DNA of 62,513 nt from Opitutus sp. GAS368 (lineage in GTDB: Bacteria > Verrucomicrobiota > Verrucomicrobiia > Chthoniobacterales > Chthoniobacteraceae). A model generated the notes under the pieces. It was not told the origin of the DNA. It saw nothing but the letters and a program-made list of their open reading frames with translations, and made no database searches. Positions 35,762 through 47,139 of the stretch are shown one piece after another. Position 1 is the stretch's first letter; every line of letters starts with the position of its first letter. The stretch spans positions 1-62,513 of the forward strand of contig CALQFT020000003.1 in NCBI GenBank assembly GCA_943329925.2. Direction: 5' to 3'. The position numbers were made by a program, and so were the translations under genes.

Positions 35762-36490
35762 ATGGGCTTTCGCATCGATCCTCACGTGCATTCATTTTAC
35801 TCTGGGGACGGAGTGAGCAGTCCTGAGGCGTTGATTCAGGCGGCTAAGCGCGTGGGTTTGGACGGGTTTGCGTTGACGGATCACAACACATCGGACGGAT
35901 GCAGGTATCTGCGCGACATTGGGTTGCTTCTGGAAGATGGAGAGCCCGTGGACGGCTTCCTGGTATTGCCGGGGATCGAAGTGTCGACCGCCGAGGGGCA
36001 CCTTTTGTGCCTCGGAGTTTGGCTTCCCAACGGTTTGAAGGGGGTGCCCGCCAAGGAGGTCATAGAGATGGTGCGGGCGCAAAATGGAGTTTCGATCCCG
36101 GCACATCCCTATGATCGCATGCGTGCGGGGATCCGAGAGGATGATTTGGATGAGTTGGAACTAGATTGTATAGAGGTTTTTAACGCAGCTACCGTGCTGC
36201 AGCGCCACAACGAAAGCGCTCTGGCGTACGCCCAGCGGCGAGGCCTCGCGATGACCGCGGGCAGCGATGCACATCACCACCTCTCCATTGGACGCTCGCA
36301 CACCACTTTTCCAGCGGAGCGCCTGTGCGTGAGGGCTATTCTGGACTCCATCACGAAGGGAACCGAACTGCACTGCCAGCCCTTCAGCGCTCTGGAAGGG
36401 TTTCGTAAGACGTTCTACAATTGGTTCAGGCTCAGGCGAAAACGGACTTATTTAGGCGCCGGGTCAGGGGGCGTCGCAGCGGGCGGCTGA
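35762..36490 (+). CDS. PHP domain metal-dependent phosphoesterase
   Basis: A 242-aa protein with the polymerase-and-histidinol-phosphatase fold: DPHVHSFYSGDG (His8, His10), LTDHNTSDG, LPGIEVSTAEGHLLCLG, PAHPYDR and AGSDAHHH give the trinuclear metal site. It resembles the TrpH/YciV group, some of which hydrolyse 3',5'-bisphosphonucleotides or RNA 5' ends. The start (MGFRIDPHVH) directly precedes the first motif. Its last 43 bp overlap the convergent dltB end. Confidence 0.88.
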   Translation: MGFRIDPHVHSFYSGDGVSSPEALIQAAKRVGLDGFALTDHNTSDGCRYLRDIGLLLEDGEPVDGFLVLPGIEVSTAEGHLLCLGVWLPNGLKGVPAKEVIEMVRAQNGVSIPAHPYDRMRAGIREDDLDELELDCIEVFNAATVLQRHNESALAYAQRRGLAMTAGSDAHHHLSIGRSHTTFPAERLCVRAILDSITKGTELHCQPFSALEGFRKTFYNWFRLRRKRTYLGAGSGGVAAGG

Positions 36491-38025
36491 TCCAAGGCGG
36501 CTTCCCGGGCCTTGCGCAGCTTTTCTTCCTCCCGCCGGATTTCCTCTTCATTACGTTCGCATTCAACTGTTTGAGGCGAGCTTTTGAGGGGTAGGTTGCT
36601 TTTCACATCCTTGACTTCGATGATGTGTGGGCGGCCGTCGCGGACCCACCAAGGGACCTCGAAGCGAAATCCGTGTTTGCCGTCTCCAAAGCCCCGTTCC
36701 TTCAAATCCTCGCGTTCAATATCCGCGGGGAGGCGCTGGATGAACTGGTCGTCGATGAACAGATCAACTTGCAGCACTTCTTGTTGCGCGGCTGGTTCCC
36801 AGACCATGCCGATGACTTCATGGGTGTCGGCTTTTTCCAAAAGCCGTTCCACGGCGATTGGCGGGGCCGGGGTGAGGCGTCCGGAGAAAAGGAGCAACCC
36901 GAAGGCGATGGAGTGGAAGGTGAGCAGCCGATTGGCGAATATTTGCAGTGCACTTTCGCCAAGAAATTTCCGCTGCTTGTTCCAGCGTGCAAACCAGTCG
37001 TAACCGCTCAGAAGCGCGGCGTGGTAAAGCCCGTAGAGCATATAGTGCAGGCTCAGTCCGTGCCAGACACCCATGATGCCGAAGGTCAAAAAGAGGCCGC
37101 AGTAGGACGCCGTGTGTTTGCCGCTGAACCATTTGCCCTTTGAAGCGGCCAACAGAAACCGCATGTAAACGTGGTCGCGAAACCAGAAGGAGAGCGAAAT
37201 GTGCCAGCGATTCCAGAAGTCACGGATGTTCTTGGACAGAAACGGGCGGTCGAAGTTTTCCGGAAGATGAACGCCGAAGAAGCGGGCCAACGCTACAGCG
37301 AAAGCGCTGTAACCGGCGAAGTCGAAGAAGAGGTAAAAGGTGTAGGCGTACATGTACATCCACAACGTTGTGAAGCCGCGCCCCTTACCCAGAGCTTCCA
37401 TCCAGTAGGTGTTGATGAGGGCCGCAATGACGAACTTGTACAAAAAACCGCGAGCCAGCCTTTTGGCCACGAAGTCGAGGTCATCGAGGAACTCCGCACG
37501 GGAGCGGGTTTTATTCCAATCCTTGATGAAGCGGCGGTAGCGATCTACAGGGCCGGAGGAAAGGGCCGGAACGAAGAGCACGTAGGCGACGTAATGCTGG
37601 AGGGAGAGGTCTTTGACAAGACCGTCTTGGATGGAAAAAAGGACGTCCAGCGCCCTGAATGTGACGTAGGAGATGCCCAGGAAACCAAAGGCAGTTTGGG
37701 GCAATAAAGTCGGGAGGAGTTTGGCCGCGGCAAGCGGTAGGAGCGAAAGGCCGAGGGTCGCGTAGAAAACCGAGCGGGAGCGGAACTGGAGCAACCAGTG
37801 GGCGAGGAGGGCTTGGAAGGCTGTATATAAGCCGATGATATAAAGTTCCCGCACTTCAAAGTCGGGGCGCAAATGGACCGGAGCGCTGGTTTGAAGTGCC
37901 AGGAGGATGCCCATGGCCACCAAGCTCGTGACGCGGTTGAGCCGGCCGAAGTACGCGAGCAATCCGAAGGGAAGCAGGATGTAAAGAAGCAGACCGAAAT
38001 ACTCGAAGTCAGAGAAGGGAACCAT
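36448..38025 (-). CDS. dltB: DltB-type MBOAT acyltransferase with C-terminal accessory domain
   Basis: A 525-aa multi-helix protein of the MBOAT family. The first 385 residues match DltB: FLGISYVTFRALDVLFSIQD, LSSGPVDRYRRF, the PFLSKNIRDFWNRWHISLSF block, and the catalytic-type His322 in GIMGVWHGLSLH. DltB is the membrane channel that takes D-alanine from DltC across the inner membrane. Unlike ordinary DltB (about 400 aa) it carries an extra module at about 403-485 with GFGDGKHGFRFEVP, then a charged helix and a proline-rich tail. Last gene of the dltD-C-X-A-B cluster, 22 bp after dltA. Its end overlaps the PHP gene. Confidence 0.9.
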   Translation of the reverse strand: MVPFSDFEYFGLLLYILLPFGLLAYFGRLNRVTSLVAMGILLALQTSAPVHLRPDFEVRELYIIGLYTAFQALLAHWLLQFRSRSVFYATLGLSLLPLAAAKLLPTLLPQTAFGFLGISYVTFRALDVLFSIQDGLVKDLSLQHYVAYVLFVPALSSGPVDRYRRFIKDWNKTRSRAEFLDDLDFVAKRLARGFLYKFVIAALINTYWMEALGKGRGFTTLWMYMYAYTFYLFFDFAGYSAFAVALARFFGVHLPENFDRPFLSKNIRDFWNRWHISLSFWFRDHVYMRFLLAASKGKWFSGKHTASYCGLFLTFGIMGVWHGLSLHYMLYGLYHAALLSGYDWFARWNKQRKFLGESALQIFANRLLTFHSIAFGLLLFSGRLTPAPPIAVERLLEKADTHEVIGMVWEPAAQQEVLQVDLFIDDQFIQRLPADIEREDLKERGFGDGKHGFRFEVPWWVRDGRPHIIEVKDVKSNLPLKSSPQTVECERNEEEIRREEEKLRKAREAALDQPPAATPPDPAPK

Positions 38026-38047: not shown

Positions 38048-39523
38048 TTAGGAGAGCATTGCGGCGAGCGCTCGGCGGTCTGCCTTGCCGTTTGCAGTCA
38101 TGGGGAAGGCGTCGAGGAAAATGAACTTGCGAGGGACCATATAAGTCGGAATGCGCTCGCCGAGGCGTGTTTTGAGGCGAGCGCTTTTTTCAAAGGCACT
38201 GCCGTCCATGGGGGTGGAAAGGACGACGAAGGCGGCAAGGGAATCGACTTTGCCGCCTTTTTCTACAGGAAGCACCACGGCGTCGGCGACCTCGGGGAGT
38301 TCGCGCAAGTTAGCCTCCATGTCACCCAATTCGATGCGGTAGCCGTGCAGCTTGATCTGTCCGTCCATGCGGCCCTCAAAGAAAATCAGTCCGTCTCGGC
38401 AGCGGCCCCAGTCCCCGGTGCGGTAAGCGGGTTGGCCTTCAAATTGGGTGAAGGCTTTCGCCGTTAACTCGGGCCGGTTGAGGTAGCCGGGGCTTACGTT
38501 CGGTCCTGCGATGAGCAGTTCGCCGCGCTCGGATTCGGCCACGGGAAGCCCGGCCTCGTCCACGGCAAGAACCCGGGTGCCGGGCATCTGGTAGCCGACG
38601 GGCAGCGGCGAGAATCGCGCAAGCAGGGAGGCGTCGACGCGCACGGAGGTGGTGGCGACCGTGGCCTCCGTGGGGCCGTACGTGTTCCAGACTTCGGCGT
38701 CTGTGAAGCGCTCTAGCAGTTGGGAGGCGGTTTCGGGGGCGAGGGTTTCGCCGCAAAAGAGAAAGCGCCGCATTGTGGGGAGCATTTCCTGCCGGAAGCT
38801 CTTTTCGATCAGGCACATCTGCGCAAAAGATGGGGTCGACACCCAGGTCGTCAGGCCGAATTGCGCCAATCTTTGATACAGCAGTTTGAGGTTGGCGAGC
38901 TCCTCCTTGGTGATGCAGGCCAGTGTGCCTCCAGTTAATAGGCTCCCGTATAAATCCATGACGGAGAGGTCGAAGGAGAACGGCGCCTGATTGAGAAACA
39001 CTTCCGCCAGAAGCTCGAACTTGTGTTCCGCCAGAAGCCAGTCCGTGAAGGCCGTCAGGTTACGCAGCGTAATCACCACCCCCTTGGGCTCTCCAGTGCT
39101 CCCCGAGGTGAAGAGCATGTAGAAAGGGTCGTCCAGTTGCACCCTGACTGGTGGGGCGGGAAGCGTGTCCGTGAGGTGCGTCAAAATTTCACTAACCTTT
39201 TCCGGAGTAAGTACAAGTGCGGCGCCAGAGCCCGCAACAATTTTTGCAATGCGCGGCTCGGGAATGGAGGTGTCCATTGGGACGTAGGCGCGGCCGCACT
39301 TTACGGCGGCAAGGAACGCAACGAGCATCTCGGGCTCCTTGTGGCCGTGGACTGCGATAGGGCCCGGACTGTGGGCTAGTTCGCGGTGCAGCCATGCGGC
39401 CAGGGCGTCTGATTGTTGGATTAGCCCGCTCCATGTCAGCGTATTGGAGCCGCTTTGCACCGCTGCGCGCTCCGGGCATAAGGTGCCCCAGCGGTCAATC
39501 CGGTCCAGAAAATGTTCACTCAT
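38048..39523 (-). CDS. dltA: D-alanine--carrier protein ligase DltA
   Basis: A 491-aa member of the AMP-forming adenylation superfamily. It has the P-loop MLFTSGSTGEPKGVV (about 137-150), FSFDLSVMDLYGSL, YGPTEATVATTSV, YRTGDWGRCRDGLIFFEGR, and the C-terminal catalytic Lys in PMTANGKADRRAL. The length is that of DltA, shorter than most NRPS adenylation domains, and the absence of fused carrier domains plus the neighbourhood (dltC, dltX, dltB, dltD) make DltA the best call. It activates D-alanine and loads it on DltC in the cytoplasm. An in-frame TTG five codons upstream is an alternative start. Confidence 0.9.
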   Translation of the reverse strand: MSEHFLDRIDRWGTLCPERAAVQSGSNTLTWSGLIQQSDALAAWLHRELAHSPGPIAVHGHKEPEMLVAFLAAVKCGRAYVPMDTSIPEPRIAKIVAGSGAALVLTPEKVSEILTHLTDTLPAPPVRVQLDDPFYMLFTSGSTGEPKGVVITLRNLTAFTDWLLAEHKFELLAEVFLNQAPFSFDLSVMDLYGSLLTGGTLACITKEELANLKLLYQRLAQFGLTTWVSTPSFAQMCLIEKSFRQEMLPTMRRFLFCGETLAPETASQLLERFTDAEVWNTYGPTEATVATTSVRVDASLLARFSPLPVGYQMPGTRVLAVDEAGLPVAESERGELLIAGPNVSPGYLNRPELTAKAFTQFEGQPAYRTGDWGRCRDGLIFFEGRMDGQIKLHGYRIELGDMEANLRELPEVADAVVLPVEKGGKVDSLAAFVVLSTPMDGSAFEKSARLKTRLGERIPTYMVPRKFIFLDAFPMTANGKADRRALAAMLS

Positions 39524-39666
39524 AGGGTGGTGGTTCAAGTTGAAGGCAACCGGGTAATTTTATGCGGATCCACGGGGAAGCCGCGCTTCAGTTCGGGAAG
39601 CCATTGACGAAACCCAATGTGACGTGAAGGTGCCCAGCGTTACCAGAGGAGAGCGACATCCCTAGC

Positions 39667-39813
39667 CTAAAACTCCTGGTAAACGAAGGGTGGGGTGGAA
39701 AAATCACCGCGTCCGTAAAGGAATACCAAGGTGAGAACCAAGGCCAGATAGTAGAGAAAAAGCGCCAAACGCTTGAGCTCTGGACGCCCCTCAAAAAAAG
39801 CATCGAAATTCAT
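39667..39813 (-). CDS. dltX: DltX, small D-alanylation-associated membrane protein
   Basis: A 48-residue product: MNFDAFFEGRPELKRLALFL, one membrane helix (about 16-33), then a short outside tail ending in PPFVYQEF. In Firmicutes DltX is about 45-50 aa, has a single helix and ends in a conserved F-[IV]-Y-x-E-F motif, which is reproduced here. DltX works with DltB and DltD in moving D-Ala from the carrier to the acceptor. It lies 13 bp after dltC and 143 bp before dltA on the same strand. The gene is easy to miss because of its size and because longer unrelated frames overlap it. Confidence 0.88.
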   Translation of the reverse strand: MNFDAFFEGRPELKRLALFLYYLALVLTLVFLYGRGDFSTPPFVYQEF

Positions 39814-39826
39814 CGAAACAAGCCAG

Positions 39827-40066
39827 TTAAGATGCCATGCGCCGCTCCAGGTCGGCGACTAGCAGGGCGGGCGTGGCCCATGCCTCGCGTTCGAACTCCG
39901 CGGGAGAGATGTCCACGTCGAATTCGCGTCCGAAGGCCACGATGAGTTCCACCGTCTTCATGGAGTCGAGAATTTGAAGATCGTACAATGCCAGATCCGG
40001 CTGGCTGAGTACTTCTTGGGTTTCAGCAACTTCTGCAAGCACCTGAAGTATTTTGTCCTTCATCAT
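39827..40066 (-). CDS. dltC: D-alanyl carrier protein DltC
   Basis: A 79-aa acyl-carrier-type protein starting MMKDKILQVLAEVAETQEVL. The phosphopantetheine-bearing Ser35 lies in LQILDSMKTVELI, close to the LLDSMGTVEL of DltC rather than the DSLD of fatty-acid carriers. It carries D-alanine as a thioester between DltA and the membrane proteins. It starts 13 bp after dltD. Two adjacent ATG codons (40066 and 40063) are possible starts. Confidence 0.9.
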   Translation of the reverse strand: MMKDKILQVLAEVAETQEVLSQPDLALYDLQILDSMKTVELIVAFGREFDVDISPAEFEREAWATPALLVADLERRMAS

Positions 40067-40079
40067 AAAACTATTCGGG

Positions 40080-41411
40080 TCAGGGTATTTCTTTAGCGAT
40101 CGGGCTTTTGCCAAGCTTGTCGTGGTAAAAGTCATCCAGCACTTTGTTATAATACCACCACCCTTTGGAACCGATATGATCATTTTGATCTACGAAAAAC
40201 ACCGGATCGCTTTCATGATCCGCAAAATAGACAAGGGGAACCCCATAGCGCCGAACCATCTCCTGCAACCGTTCGCCGTAGGCCAAGCGACCCGTCTCCG
40301 AGACTCCCTGGGCTTCCAGCACATCGGCATGCAAGGGCATGGACATCACTAAAGGCTTGGCGCCCGCCTCTTTGAGTAGGCGAAGAACCAGCTCAAAATC
40401 TCTCCACTCCTGAGCCTTGCGCATCTTAACGGCAAACTGCCTGTCCCAAGTCCCCCGCGCGCGCACCACTTTGATGGGGCGCTTTCGGGACTTTGCCGCC
40501 AGCACTTTGGACTGTTGTTCGGCCGTGCGAAAAAGGTCGTCCCACCTCAGCGCCTTGCCACGTTTTGGCCGGAACCGGCCGGCGCCGTCGTTAGCCGTCA
40601 TCCCGTTGAGTGCAAAACCGGCTTCGATGTGATCCTGTAGTCGCGCGACCATCCGGTCCAAGGCGGCGTAGGGGCGGATGAGCGTCAGCAGAAAACGGTT
40701 GCTCGGGGATCCTGCGGCCCAACGGCGTAGGGTGAATTCCAGAGTCCAATCGCCCTCCATCACCTTGGGGTACTTCAAGATCTCTTCGGAGACATCTCGC
40801 TTAAGCTCGGCGCTGAAGCGGTCGCTCCATAAAAACTCCTTAATCTGGAGCTTCGAGGAGTTGCCTTCAAAGTACTTGGCGTCGACTTCTTCACTTTGAA
40901 AAAAACTGGGCGAAAGGGAGAGAACCAACTTTTTTCCAGCCAATTGCTCGGCGGCGCCACCGAGTTTTTGGAGTACGGAAAGCGCAGTGGTTCCCGCCTT
41001 ACCGACAGGAAACATGGTGAACCCAGTGGGGGAGTCGGAGAAAAAGTCGACGCCCTTCATGGGAACGTCGGGAATGAGCTCCGAGCTGCCAAAGAAAACG
41101 AGGGTGTCGGGCCTTGAGAGCGCCTCCCGGATGAGGGCCACGCCGTGCAGCTTCGCGTCGCAAAACTCAGGTGCAGCAGTGTGCAGTCGTCTTTCTTGAA
41201 TGTCGCGAGCCCAGAAGTAACCTCCTGTAATAAAAGCGCCTGCGAGAAGGACGGCCGAGCAAAGAAAAATCAGGTGAGAGTGCCCGCCGGATAGTTTTGC
41301 GGGGGGTGCGGGGGGTGGCGCCCCGGGGGAGGTTGGCACTAAATCCGCAGCTCCTGCCTTCTTGGGGGCAGCAGGAGACGCATCCAATGTACCTATGGGT
41401 CCGGAGATCAT
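40080..41411 (-). CDS. dltD: D-alanine transfer protein DltD
   Basis: A 443-aa protein with an unusual proline/alanine-rich cytoplasmic N-terminus (about 8-40), one membrane anchor (about 45-67) and an extracytoplasmic SGNH-like domain. The nucleophile motif is FFGSSEL (Ser109/Ser110). The C-terminal catalytic region reads VDQNDHIGSKGWWYYN (Asp408, Asp411, His412), matching the D..HxGxKGW block of Firmicute DltD, although the Asp spacing differs slightly. DltD hands D-Ala to the final acceptor outside the membrane. First gene of the cluster, divergent from uvrA. The frame opens 74 codons earlier, but that part is not coding-like. Confidence 0.9.
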   Translation of the reverse strand: MISGPIGTLDASPAAPKKAGAADLVPTSPGAPPPAPPAKLSGGHSHLIFLCSAVLLAGAFITGGYFWARDIQERRLHTAAPEFCDAKLHGVALIREALSRPDTLVFFGSSELIPDVPMKGVDFFSDSPTGFTMFPVGKAGTTALSVLQKLGGAAEQLAGKKLVLSLSPSFFQSEEVDAKYFEGNSSKLQIKEFLWSDRFSAELKRDVSEEILKYPKVMEGDWTLEFTLRRWAAGSPSNRFLLTLIRPYAALDRMVARLQDHIEAGFALNGMTANDGAGRFRPKRGKALRWDDLFRTAEQQSKVLAAKSRKRPIKVVRARGTWDRQFAVKMRKAQEWRDFELVLRLLKEAGAKPLVMSMPLHADVLEAQGVSETGRLAYGERLQEMVRRYGVPLVYFADHESDPVFFVDQNDHIGSKGWWYYNKVLDDFYHDKLGKSPIAKEIP

Positions 41412-41631
41412 GTTCTGGGAAGGCAGGCGGGGGTAGGTGATCTTAACACACGCTGTGGGAATCGCAAGGGATTGAGGTTGCAACAGCTTTGACGAAAAGG
41501 GAAGGTCGTCTGGTTGGTGGAACCAAGCGGTTGCCGCTTTTGCACCTCCGTGCCGACGGAAAATGATCCCGTGCCTCGGCTCGCTCCAAGCTTGCGAACT
41601 TGCCCGCTCTCGCCGAGGTTTCGCCCTGCCC

Positions 41632-44600
41632 ATGGCACACTCCTACCACCCTCCCTGCGGCCCGGGTTTCATTGAGATTCGCGGGGCTCGCCAAAACAAT
41701 TTGAAGGGCTTCGATGTTTCGCTACCGCTTGGCAAACTAATCGTCGTCTCCGGCCCAAGCGGCAGCGGGAAATCCAGCTTCGCTTTCGACACTCTCTACG
41801 CGGAAGGACAGCGCCGCTACGTGGAGACCTTCAGCCCGTACACCCGTCAGTTTTTCGATCGGATGGACAAGCCGGCTGTCGACGAAATCCGCGGCATCCC
41901 CCCGGCAATCGCCATCCAACAAGTCAACGCCGTCAAATCCACCCGCTCCACCGTTGGGACCATCACCGACCTTAACGACTATCTCAAACTGCTGCTCCCC
42001 CGCGTGGTCGAGGCGTTCTGTCCGGGGTGCAATCAAGCGGTCCGCCCCGCCACCGCTGTCTCTATTGTGGATGGACTGCTCCACGTTTCCGAGCCGCTCC
42101 TCATCACCTTCCCGTTGGCTGTGCCACCGGACGCCGTCGCCAGCGAATTTTTAGCCTTCCTTAAGCAACAAGGCTACCAACGAATTTGGGCAAAGGGTGT
42201 GGTGGTGCGCACTGATGAGCCGGTCTCAGAGCTTCCCTCCGAGGTGTTTGTCATCCAAGACCGACTCACCTCTTCCGTCGAAAACCGGCCACGTCTCTCG
42301 GAGGCCGTGGAAATCGCGCTGCGTTTTGGAAAGGGAAAAATGGCGGCCATCGCCGGGGACCAGATTCGTCCCTTCGCCACGGGCTGGCATTGCGCTGCTT
42401 GTGCTCGCTCGCTTCCCGAACCGACGGCGGGCCGCTTTTCGTTCAACCATCCGCAGGGAGCCTGTGCGGCTTGCAGAGGCTTTGGGCGGGTCATTACGCT
42501 GGATCTGCTTCGCGCTGTGCCCAACCCAGAACTGAGCATCAATGACGGCGTGGTTAAACCTTTTCAAACTGAAGGGGGCGCCGATTGCCAGCGGGATTTA
42601 CTCCGCCAGGCAGCCAAACGCGGAATCAATTGCAGCACCGCGTTTACCAAACTCTCCGAGCCTGACCAGCAGTGGGTATTATACGGTGAGGATCCTTTGC
42701 GCTCAGGCGACTACTTGTGGAAGAAGGACTTGTGGTATGGTGTGCGCGGTTTTTTTGAGTGGATGGAGGCCAAGAGTTACAAAATGCACGTCCGCGTGCT
42801 GTTGAGTCGTTATCGCACATATACGGTTTGTCCGGACTGTCACGGCAACCGATTCGCGCCGGACACGATGAACTTCCGCTGGGACGGCCTAACCGCATCA
42901 GACTTGATGCGGCTGCCGGTGAGCGAGTTGCACACATTCATTCGACAGCGCCGGGAGCTTCTCTCCAAAGACCCAACGGCCGACCTCCTCTCGGGCGAGG
43001 TGCAATCCAGATTGCAATATCTTCTGGACGTTGGACTTGGATATCTGACTTTGGAGCGCCCCACACGCTCTCTCAGCGGCGGCGAAACTGCGCGGGTTAA
43101 TCTGACCACCTGTTTGGGGACGGCCTTGGTGAACACGCTTTTTGTGTTGGATGAACCCAGCATCGGGTTGCATCCGCGCGATACGGGGCGGCTTTTAAGC
43201 GTGCTTAAACGACTCCGGGACAAAGGAAATACGTTGGTCGTGGTGGAGCACGAGGAGGCGATGTTACGCGCGGCGGATCATTTCATAGAGATCGGGCCAG
43301 GGCGCGGCGAAGCGGGCGGCCATCTGGTGTACGCGGGACCGTCGGAGGCGCTCCTTTCGGGTGCCGCTAGGACGCTGACGGGGGATTATCTCACTGGGAA
43401 AAAATTCGTTCCTGTGCGCACCAAGCGCCGCAAGCCGAAGGGCTGGGTGAAAGTCGAAGGGGCAAGCGCCCACAATTTGAAAGCGGTGGACGCCTCCTTT
43501 CCGCTGGGCGTACTTTGTTGTGTTACAGGTGTTTCAGGATCCGGAAAAAGCACGCTGGTGCACCGCGTGTTGTACGGTCAGCTCGCGAAGGCGCAGGGCC
43601 TGGACTTGGACGAAGCGCCGGGAGAGTGCCGGGCAATCCACGGGGCGCAGAAGGCTGGACCGGTAGTGCTCGTCGACCAGACGCCCCTATCCAAAACCCC
43701 GCGTTCCACTCCCGCGCTTTACCTCGGAATTTTCGATGAAATCCGAGCGAGGTTCGCAAAAACGCCGGAGGCGCAAGCGGCTGGATTTACTGCGGGCAGC
43801 TTCTCATTTAATTCTGGAAAGGGTCGTTGCGAACGCTGTGGGGGAAGCGGCTATGAGAAGATCGAGATGCAGTTTTTGAGCGACGTTTATGTGCGATGCC
43901 CGGAATGCGAGGGGCGGCGTTACCAGCCGCACGTGCGGCAGATTTTATTGGAGGGAAAGTCCATCGATGCAGTGTTGGAACTTACGGTCACAGAAGCTAT
44001 TGAATTTCTAATAAAGGCGGATATGCCGGGCGCTATCAAGCCGCTTGAGACACTCCAAGAACTGGGGCTCGGATACCTGCGGCTTGGGCAGCCTCTCAAC
44101 GGCCTCTCCGGTGGCGAAGCCCAGCGCGTCAAGCTCGCCGAGCGGCTCATTCAACGCTCAAAAACGGGCGCATTTCTCATCCTGGACGAGCCCACCACGG
44201 GCCTTCATTTGGACGACATTGTCTTGTTGGTCGCCGCACTCAACAAGCTTGTCGATGATGGCCACACCGTTCTTGTTATTGAGCACAACCCGGACGTGAT
44301 TCGCGGTGCCGATCACATTATTGACCTCGGGCCCGAGGCCGGTGCCGACGGCGGCTGCATTTTGGTGGCCGGCACTCCCGAGCAGGTTGCCGCGTGCGCA
44401 GAGTCTCACACTGGCCGCTTCCTGCAGCTCGACGCCGGTGTGCAAGATGCCTTGCGCGTTGCGGAAGAGCTAAATTTTCATAGTGTTGCGCAGGTGCCAG
44501 ACGGCATTCATATCGTCGGCGCCAGGCAGCACAATCTGAAAAATCTGACTCTCACCATTCCGAGAAACTCCATCGCCGTCATCACCGGATTGAGCGGTTC

Positions 44601-47139
44601 GGGGAAGTCTTCGCTGGCGTTTGACCTGCTTTTCGCAGAGGGCCAGCGCCGCTTTTTAGACAGCATGTCGCCCTATGCGCGGCAGTTTGCCACCCAACTG
44701 GAGCGCCCGGACGTGGACCTGATCACGGGCCTGCCACCCTCCGTCGCCATCGAGCAGCGCCTCACCCGAGGCGGAGGCAAGTCCACCGTCGCGACGGTCA
44801 CCGAGGTTTATCATTTCCTTCGTCTGCTCTTCGCAAAACTCGGCGTCCAGCATTGTCCGGATTGCGAACTGCCGGTGGAGCGCCAGACGGTAAGTTCCGC
44901 GGTCACCAAGGCAGAAACCCTCGCGAAAAAGGGCGTGGTTTCAATTCTAGCGCCTTTGATCCGTGCCCGAAAAGGGTATCACAACGAAATTGCAACATGG
45001 GCGATACGTCGTGGTTATGAGGATTTATTGGTGGATGAAAAGTGGGTCAAGGCGAGTGCTTTTCCAAAGTTGGCCCGGTTCAAGGAACACACCATTGAGG
45101 TACTCATTGGCAAGAGCGGTCCGGACGGATTGACCCGCAAAGTTATTGAGACTGCGTTGGAGGTGGGTAAGGGGACGGCCGTTCTGCTGGATGCCAAACT
45201 GAAGCGCCACGTGCTAAGCACGCAGTACAGTTGTACGGGTTGCGGCACATCTTTTGAAGAGCCCGATCCGCGCCAGTTTTCTTTCAACAGTCCGCACGGT
45301 TGGTGCGAGGTCTGCCACGGGTTTGGTGAGGAATGGGTGCGCAAGGACAACCCGCGGCTGGATTCTGCGCTGGAAATCGAACTGGACCACGAGCGCCAAC
45401 ATGAGGCACTGGAGGACGAGGAGCGCGCGGTTTGCTCTACGTGTGATGGTGCTCGTATTCGGCGCGAGTCGAGATTCGTTTTCGTCGGATTGAGCACGTT
45501 GCCAGCGATTGTTGCGCTTCCGGCGGCGGGCGTTTTGAAATGGTTGGAGAGTTTGGGTTTTTCAGGAAACCAGGCGAGGATTGCGGAAGACATTCTCCCG
45601 GAAATTACTCAACGGCTTCAGTTTTTGAGCGAGGTTGGACTGGATTACCTTACCTTGAACCGTTCGGCGAAAACCTTATCCGGTGGCGAGTCTCAACGCA
45701 TCCGGCTCGCGGCGCAGTTGGGCTCCAACCTGCGCGGCGTCCTTTACGTTCTGGACGAACCAACCATCGGATTGCATCCCCGCGACAACGCCGCTCTTCT
45801 GGATACGCTCACTGCGCTTAAGGCCAAGGGTAATTCGCTCGTCATTGTCGAGCATGACGAGGATACGCTGCTTCGCGCCGATCATGTGATTGATCTCGGG
45901 CCCGGCGCAGGCCGACACGGCGGCCAAATCATTGCGCAGGGAACGCTCGCAGAACTACGTGCCGCACCACTTTCTGCCACAGGGGAATCCCTTCGCAATC
46001 CTCTACAACATCCCATGCTGGGCCAACGCCGATCTCTTGCGAAAGGCGAGTTGACGGGGTGGTTGGAGATACTAGGGGCCCATTTGAATAACGTGAAGAA
46101 CATGGATGTGCGCATACCGCTAGGAAGGCTCACGGTGCTCACGGGGATTTCTGGTTCAGGCAAAAGCACGTTCATGCGCGGGATTCTCAAGCCCGTTCTG
46201 GAGGCTGCGATTGCGGGTCGAAAACCTCGCCACTCCGGTGCGAGTGTTATCGGAAAATTGTGTCGAAGTTTCGACGGCGCCGATGGCGTCGAAGCGGTTT
46301 ACGAAGTGGACCAGTCGCCTATCGGCAAGACGTCGCGGTCCACGCCGGCCACGTATCTGAGCATCTTTGACGCGATTCGTTCGCTCTTTGCAGGCACTCC
46401 CTTGGCTCGAATCCGCGGTTATTCCGGCGGACGTTTTTCATTCAACACCGAAGGCGGACGATGTGAGACTTGCCTCGGGCAGGGCACATTGAAAATAGAG
46501 ATGAACTTCCTGCCCACCGCGCACATCCAGTGTCCGGATTGCGGCGGGCGTCGTTACAATCCAACGACTTTGGAGGTCCCTTATGGAGGCAAGACCATCG
46601 CCGATGTGCTGGCTTTGCCAATGGAAGATGCGGCGGAGTTTTTCGCATCGCACCCTTCTATCGCGAGGCCTCTCAAATTATTGTGCGAAACCGGATTGGG
46701 TTACCTGACATTGGGGCAGTCCAGTCAGACTTTGAGTGGTGGAGAGGCGCAGCGACTCAAGCTTGTGAGCGAATTGGTACGCGGCGTGAGTCGAAGTGAA
46801 AACGCGCGCTTGCGCAGTTCAAAGCCCGCTCCTTCGATGGTGTACTTGTTGGAGGAACCCACCATTGGATTGCACCAAGCCGACGTGCGCCAGCTGCTGG
46901 GGGTGCTGCATCGGTTGGTGGATGCGGGACATACCGTGGTGGTTATTGAGCACCACACCTCGGTCATCGCGGAGGCGGATTTCCTTTTGGAGATCGGCCC
47001 CGAAGCGGGTGCAGCAGGCGGTGAACTCATCGCCTGTGGCACTCCGGAAGAAGTGGTGAAGGTGAAAGGAAGCCGGATTGCGCCGTTTTTAAAACCGCTT
47101 TTGAAACGGAAGACGCGACCTGCAAAGAGCAAAGGCTAA
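41632..47139 (+). CDS. uvrA: double-length excinuclease ABC subunit UvrA
   Basis: An 1835-aa chain formed by two complete UvrA units (about 1-945 and 955-1835). Each has two ATPase modules. Walker A: GPSGSGKSS (41), GVSGSGKST (633), GLSGSGKSS (986), GISGSGKST (1505). Signatures LSGGE at 481, 825, 1349 and 1701. Walker B: LDEPSIGLH, LDEPTTGLH, LDEPTIGLH, and in the fourth module LEEPTIGLH, with Glu for Asp. Each half also has the C-terminal zinc finger (CERC..CPEC near 735-763 and CETC..CPDC near 1610-1637). UvrA recognises DNA damage and loads UvrB. Normal UvrA is a homodimer of about 940 aa, so this chain could act as a covalent dimer. Chlamydiae have a similar double protein. Confidence 0.95.
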   Translation: MAHSYHPPCGPGFIEIRGARQNNLKGFDVSLPLGKLIVVSGPSGSGKSSFAFDTLYAEGQRRYVETFSPYTRQFFDRMDKPAVDEIRGIPPAIAIQQVNAVKSTRSTVGTITDLNDYLKLLLPRVVEAFCPGCNQAVRPATAVSIVDGLLHVSEPLLITFPLAVPPDAVASEFLAFLKQQGYQRIWAKGVVVRTDEPVSELPSEVFVIQDRLTSSVENRPRLSEAVEIALRFGKGKMAAIAGDQIRPFATGWHCAACARSLPEPTAGRFSFNHPQGACAACRGFGRVITLDLLRAVPNPELSINDGVVKPFQTEGGADCQRDLLRQAAKRGINCSTAFTKLSEPDQQWVLYGEDPLRSGDYLWKKDLWYGVRGFFEWMEAKSYKMHVRVLLSRYRTYTVCPDCHGNRFAPDTMNFRWDGLTASDLMRLPVSELHTFIRQRRELLSKDPTADLLSGEVQSRLQYLLDVGLGYLTLERPTRSLSGGETARVNLTTCLGTALVNTLFVLDEPSIGLHPRDTGRLLSVLKRLRDKGNTLVVVEHEEAMLRAADHFIEIGPGRGEAGGHLVYAGPSEALLSGAARTLTGDYLTGKKFVPVRTKRRKPKGWVKVEGASAHNLKAVDASFPLGVLCCVTGVSGSGKSTLVHRVLYGQLAKAQGLDLDEAPGECRAIHGAQKAGPVVLVDQTPLSKTPRSTPALYLGIFDEIRARFAKTPEAQAAGFTAGSFSFNSGKGRCERCGGSGYEKIEMQFLSDVYVRCPECEGRRYQPHVRQILLEGKSIDAVLELTVTEAIEFLIKADMPGAIKPLETLQELGLGYLRLGQPLNGLSGGEAQRVKLAERLIQRSKTGAFLILDEPTTGLHLDDIVLLVAALNKLVDDGHTVLVIEHNPDVIRGADHIIDLGPEAGADGGCILVAGTPEQVAACAESHTGRFLQLDAGVQDALRVAEELNFHSVAQVPDGIHIVGARQHNLKNLTLTIPRNSIAVITGLSGSGKSSLAFDLLFAEGQRRFLDSMSPYARQFATQLERPDVDLITGLPPSVAIEQRLTRGGGKSTVATVTEVYHFLRLLFAKLGVQHCPDCELPVERQTVSSAVTKAETLAKKGVVSILAPLIRARKGYHNEIATWAIRRGYEDLLVDEKWVKASAFPKLARFKEHTIEVLIGKSGPDGLTRKVIETALEVGKGTAVLLDAKLKRHVLSTQYSCTGCGTSFEEPDPRQFSFNSPHGWCEVCHGFGEEWVRKDNPRLDSALEIELDHERQHEALEDEERAVCSTCDGARIRRESRFVFVGLSTLPAIVALPAAGVLKWLESLGFSGNQARIAEDILPEITQRLQFLSEVGLDYLTLNRSAKTLSGGESQRIRLAAQLGSNLRGVLYVLDEPTIGLHPRDNAALLDTLTALKAKGNSLVIVEHDEDTLLRADHVIDLGPGAGRHGGQIIAQGTLAELRAAPLSATGESLRNPLQHPMLGQRRSLAKGELTGWLEILGAHLNNVKNMDVRIPLGRLTVLTGISGSGKSTFMRGILKPVLEAAIAGRKPRHSGASVIGKLCRSFDGADGVEAVYEVDQSPIGKTSRSTPATYLSIFDAIRSLFAGTPLARIRGYSGGRFSFNTEGGRCETCLGQGTLKIEMNFLPTAHIQCPDCGGRRYNPTTLEVPYGGKTIADVLALPMEDAAEFFASHPSIARPLKLLCETGLGYLTLGQSSQTLSGGEAQRLKLVSELVRGVSRSENARLRSSKPAPSMVYLLEEPTIGLHQADVRQLLGVLHRLVDAGHTVVVIEHHTSVIAEADFLLEIGPEAGAAGGELIACGTPEEVVKVKGSRIAPFLKPLLKRKTRPAKSKG

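Follow-up and report, generated by a model that had tools for sequence, protein, structure and literature searches.

A conserved DltX microprotein in the dlt operon of a verrucomicrobium with LPS genes

The 62,513-nucleotide stretch of verrucomicrobial DNA analyzed here (the window) carries a dlt operon on its minus strand in the order dltD, dltC, dltX, dltA, and dltB (D-C-X-A-B). The dltX ATG lies 13 bases downstream of the end of dltC at 39827, and 143 bases separate the dltX stop from the downstream dltA ATG at 39523 (Table 1). Divergent from the operon lies a 1858-residue frame (41563–47139, plus strand) that resembles a putative tandem pair of UvrA proteins joined into a single polypeptide.

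Table 1 Features of the dlt locus in the window.
Feature	Position	Strand	Basis and remarks
dltD, SGNH-type transferase	40080..41411	(-)	Pfam, NCBIfam; start codon not certain, 41411 being the first ATG in the stretch searched
dltC, D-alanyl carrier protein, Ser35	39827..40066	(-)	Pfam, NCBIfam, alignment
dltX	39667..39813	(-)	48 codons plus stop; frame, Pfam match, selection test
Predicted membrane helix of DltX, residues 16–34	39712..39768	(-)	Hydropathy peak; AlphaFold helix 11–33
FVYQEF, putative acyl-shuttle motif, residues 43–48	39670..39687	(-)	Tyr45 codon 39679–39681; meaning taken from PMC12148441
Overlapping 71-aa ORF	39588..39803	(-)	Judged spurious
dltA, D-alanine-activating enzyme	38048..39523	(-)	Pfam, NCBIfam
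dltB, MBOAT, His275 and His322, C-terminal extension residues 391–525	36448..38025	(-)	Pfam, NCBIfam, alignment

The dltX product, taken from the ORF list and the translation of the window, is MNFDAFFEGRPELKRLALFLYYLALVLTLVFLYGRGDFSTPPFVYQEF, followed by a stop codon. Its hydropathy maximum falls on residues 16–34 (mean 2.26), and an AlphaFold model places a helix at residues 11–33 followed by a loose tail (mean pLDDT 84.8, pTM 0.53) that ends in PPFVYQEF. A Pfam-A search with the 48 residues returned a single family, PF12459 (DltX), at 26 bits against a curated cut-off of 25 (E 6.6e-6), with residues 17–48 aligned to positions 12–43 of the 43-position profile. The score clears the cut-off by just one bit, which counts against our best explanation; in a six-frame search the frame scored 24.8 bits, counted as 25.2 with its neighbors in frame, and the DltX of several relatives falls under the cut-off at 22–24 bits. 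The 48 residues matched no NCBIfam model, and a search of solved structures with the DltX profile A1 recovered no DltX chain and five unrelated matches (best E 0.48). The score, a length of ~50 residues with one predicted helix, the FXYXXF end, and the dltA–dltD neighbors place the product in the PF12459 DltX family. The initial annotation had proposed a 48-aa DltX microprotein between dltC and dltA, and the size, strand, neighbors, helix, tail motif, and profile match all bear this out.

The partner proteins are those of a dlt pathway. Pfam names DltD and finds the expected domains in DltC, DltA, and DltB, while NCBIfam names all four, each above a curated cut-off (DltA, NF003417; DltB, TIGR04091; DltC, TIGR01688; DltD, TIGR04092). 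The sole curated dlt model missed is TIGR01734, for which DltA scores 541.1, below the cut-off of 559.85, so D-Ala is a likely rather than a proven substrate of DltA. Key residues are kept almost throughout the aligned rows, in which many genomes are represented twice: His275 and His322 of DltB in 74 of 75 rows each, Ser115 of DltD in 100 of 102, and Ser35 of DltC in all 91. Both histidines align with the conserved histidines of solved DltB, and the DltB model matches the solved protein with Z scores of 37.7–37.8 over 376–377 residues.

DltB carries in addition a C-terminal extension (residues 391–525; 36448–36855, minus strand) with a predicted β domain. The extension is kept in the genus and several family members and is missing from L132 and L140. 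It gave no confident Pfam match and no PDB sequence match; in a fold search, with the extension modeled as part of DltB, it drew Ig/FnIII-like matches with Z scores of at most 7.9, which may reflect a common arrangement. In two second-type dlt clusters, DltD (L105, 6124–7347; L107, 8239–9462) has a Cys at the Ser115 position and aligns poorly at the histidine.

The dltX frame stands out from its surroundings. The window contains 1419 stop-to-stop frames with a length of 25 residues or more, and dltX alone among them has the F-x-Y-x-x-F ending. The genus offers 11 relatives besides the window's own genome, of which G010 (62% complete, with neither DltD nor DltX) and G011 (its contig ends inside dltX) were left out of the selection test, giving 10 genus members with the window sequence as reference in nine comparisons. 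Over the last 16 codons, YGRGDFSTPPFVYQEF, each comparison shows 0 nonsynonymous against 4–10 synonymous differences, and the pooled pN/pS over all 48 codons is 0.36 (codon bootstrap 0.27–0.46). The other five frames over the dltX stretch contain 8–33 stops in the 10 genus sequences. The initial annotation had noted longer spurious frames over dltX; the overlapping 71-aa ORF is spurious by our judgment, with 20 stops in its frame over the same stretch and no matching Pfam family. The codon pattern points to strong purifying selection on the tail, and sequence comparison confirms dltX as a real protein-coding frame. A chance frame, arising from G+C-rich sequence or from overlap with the 71-aa ORF, would find some backing in the many long spurious frames of the window. 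Set against the single occurrence of the motif, the purifying selection, the stops in the other frames, and the DltX family match, its probability is negligible.

Conservation extends to close relatives that carry the dlt genes, where both the frame and its tail are kept. Phe43, Tyr45, and Phe48 are invariant across 36 aligned rows, and in many relatives the glutamate of the motif is Gly, Asn, Ala, Ser, or Asp. The pattern first read as F-[IV]-Y-x-E-F therefore stands as F-x-Y-x-x-F, the form given for DltX in PMC12148441, and loses its fixed glutamate.

We surveyed 97 genomes of relatives, the window's own included. DltD is present in 37, and 36 of these, again counting the window's own, have a DltX frame adjoining dltC or dltA in the Pfam table. 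G067 carries pieces of DltD on a short slice without DltX, and in G011 dltX is broken off by the contig end. The 60 genomes without DltD yielded one PF12459 match at E<=0.005 (G084), which contains an internal stop. We then fetched 48 loci around DltD and DltX matches, with the window itself, rather than a fetched locus, representing its own genome. A DltX frame is found in 36 of the 48, in 35 by phmmer and in L107 through a Pfam match and translation; the remaining 12 hold DltD copies or pieces and no strong dltA match. The order C-D-X-A-B also occurs among these loci beside D-C-X-A-B, and dltD is the gene that sits elsewhere in G013 and G024.

All 29 fetched loci with a strong dltA match have dltX just upstream of it. 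A short frame in this position could be a leader peptide or a translational-coupling device for dltA, with no role as a protein in D-Ala transfer. In six genomes (G005, G007, G021, G032, G034, and G036), however, dltA lies away from the operon and dltX still follows dltC, which argues that dltX is not a dltA leader; the fetched flanks of the relocated dltA genes contain no frame with the motif. Conservation also falls on the amino-acid tail and not on the base sequence, and the frame matches a family whose member in Bacillus thuringiensis is described as essential for D-alanylation (PMC5541007). A leader is thus very unlikely, and both this reading and that of a chance frame were rejected on the strength of the selection test, the relocated dltA genes, and the single motif among 1419 frames.

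Beyond the genus, we scanned the genome_contigs collection with DltX patterns derived from the window's own family, which matched 104 stretches, 49 of them confirmed, a count that favors close tails because of the origin of the patterns. By record title, the confirmed stretches comprise 40 from Verrucomicrobiota, seven from Chloroflexota, one Isosphaeraceae (Planctomycetota) MAG, and one Bacillota MAG; all but a few are MAGs, and some MAG titles, e.g. Akkermansia, are doubtful. Most of the 40 are from Chthoniobacteraceae or unnamed Verrucomicrobia, and they include a Candidatus Udaeobacter MAG and a named isolate, Chthoniobacter flavus Ellin428 (L129), with the order D-C-X-A-B. Of the non-verrucomicrobial frames compared with Pfam DltX, L133, L141, and L156 score above the cut-off, L158 stays below it at 19 bits, and no Pfam family matches L155, the frame of the Bacillota MAG. 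Among 337 evenly sampled Verrucomicrobiota genomes, DltD and DltX above cut-off were found solely in the window's own genome. Within the phylum, the dlt system is thus patchily distributed and clusters near the window's family. A scan of viral_contigs matched 46 stretches, none of them confirmed.

A tree of DltA joins five plasmid-borne Bacilli, an enterobacterial row on a very long branch, and five of the seven rows from Chloroflexota (98/99), and the Verrucomicrobiota rows fall outside this group. Bacillota are represented in it by one MAG and the five plasmid-borne rows. We read neither an age nor a direction of transfer from this tree. The earlier suggestion that the whole mechanism was inherited should not be taken to mean vertical descent, given the patchy distribution in the phylum and a position in the DltA tree outside the group of the five sampled Bacilli.

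Related arrangements appear in two other stretches. A 599-residue MBOAT-like frame ending in FIYFQF (L157, 4451–6250; also in L092) lies <2 kb from a split DltX, so fused and split forms of the shuttle motif coexist in one genome. On a plasmid of Leptolinea (Chloroflexota), a 47-residue frame ending in WIYQGF (L171, 5274–5417) directly precedes an MBOAT gene, and the stretch fetched around it yielded no dltA, dltC, or dltD.

One and the same dlt operon is present on plasmids of Klebsiella electrica and Enterobacter cloacae, both at 100.0% over 4053 bases, in the order D-x-B-A-C. Its x, a frame of 40 residues labeled 'hypothetical protein', separates dltD from the MBOAT gene; it ends in FEYQKF, has one hydrophobic stretch as judged by eye, and has no Pfam match. 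By motif and position, the frame may be called DltX-like. In the enterobacterial DltB (L166, 5710–6828), WNG replaces WHG, with Asn at the MBOAT histidine, the one such row of 75. We found no near copy of the plasmid operon in E. coli genomes. A Lactobacillus plasmid operon (L169) has dltABCD with no DltX found, so not every dlt operon has an adjacent dltX. Comparable plasmid frames are annotated as DltX or as 'hypothetical protein', and one is left unannotated; the expectation that gene callers would miss such frames thus holds for that one and fails for the others.

The closest known counterpart is the DltX of Bacillota (PF12459, formerly DUF3687; dltXABCD), which likewise has ~50 residues, one helix, and a C-terminal F-x-Y-x-x-F and lies beside dltA together with dltABCD. 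It differs in gene order (X-A-B-C-D), in its tail (the window has FVYQEF, three of the sampled Bacilli have FIYNEF, and a fourth has YIYNDF), and in the sequence before the motif, where the window's family has a conserved YGRGDFSTPP; its hosts also differ from the window's, a diderm with LPS genes. PatA-type MBOAT proteins, which act with PatB in the O-acetylation of Gram-negative peptidoglycan, have the same hexapeptide, and PatA is reported to acetylate the tyrosine of this C-terminal motif (PMC12148441). There acetyl-CoA serves as donor and the motif is fused to the MBOAT C-terminus, whereas the window encodes a separate microprotein and a carrier protein. Enterobacterial dlt systems (Dickeya, Pectobacterium, and the Klebsiella electrica and Enterobacter cloacae plasmid copies) share a Gram-negative host with the window's operon and, as judged from the plasmid copies, differ from it in gene order, in a frame without a Pfam match, and in the Asn of DltB.

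The frame, its family match, the purifying selection, the co-occurrence with DltD, and the key residues of the partners carry our best explanation: very probably, the locus encodes a genuine DltX that relays D-Ala and completes a five-part dlt operon in a diderm verrucomicrobium. In this scheme, DltA would activate D-Ala and load it onto Ser35 of DltC; DltB would transfer it across the membrane to DltX, whose FVYQEF tail with Tyr45 would lie on the opposite face; and DltD would take it from Tyr45 and esterify an envelope polymer. The acyl-tyrosine step, the topology with the tail outside, and the complex are inferred from work on Firmicutes and PatAB. The 2025 account of PMC12148441 describes the DltX mechanism for teichoic acid and, citing original work, states that in Firmicutes the DltX tyrosine carries D-Ala and DltX binds DltB and DltD.

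A relay of the same type might serve an acyl group other than D-Ala, such as another amino acid. The DltA score below TIGR01734 would allow this, as would the glycine modification of Vibrio cholerae LPS, reported to use machinery similar to that for D-alanine (PMC3783018). The scores of DltA, DltC, DltB, and DltD above NF003417, TIGR01688, TIGR04091, and TIGR04092 speak against it, and we regard it as unlikely.

A D-Ala relay here probably serves an acceptor other than a classical teichoic acid, because the window's genome (93.5% complete; a Chthoniobacteraceae relative) contains LpxC and LptD, and CDP-glycerol glycerophosphotransferase (PF04464) is absent from all 38 genomes searched, its own included, in a search limited to that family. 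We guess that it is LPS or some other glycopolymer of the periplasm. What the Dickeya genes modify was not yet known in PMC3544676, and PMC5541007 names LPS as the probable target in soft-rot enterobacteria.

Both DltX proteins and their mechanism are already known; what we describe extends their range beyond that given in textbooks and adds no new system. In 2017, PMC5541007 listed 809 species with dltX, of which 805 were Firmicutes, so a few others had already been counted. The portions of the literature on DltX outside Firmicutes that our searches returned hold no description of it in Verrucomicrobiota; 'DLTx' in PMC11083952 refers to lung transplantation. As far as these searches show, a conserved DltX in a lineage of Verrucomicrobiota whose envelope is of the LPS type is new, as are the orders D-C-X-A-B and C-D-X-A-B and the DltX-like frame in enterobacterial operons.

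That DltX is under strong selection in a bacterium of the LPS type suggests a tyrosine relay tied to the dlt enzymes and not to teichoic acid. It is conceivable, though we lean slightly against it, that the split relay is an ancient envelope-acylation module common to Verrucomicrobiota, Chloroflexota, Planctomycetota, Pseudomonadota, and Bacillota, putting D-alanine on LPS or another non-teichoic polymer in diderm hosts. For annotation, F-x-Y-x-x-F microproteins should be sought in dlt operons, the enterobacterial one being labeled merely 'hypothetical protein'. The DltX relay step would not be confined to teichoic-acid bacteria, and the target polymer of diderm dlt systems becomes a testable question in Chthoniobacter flavus Ellin428.
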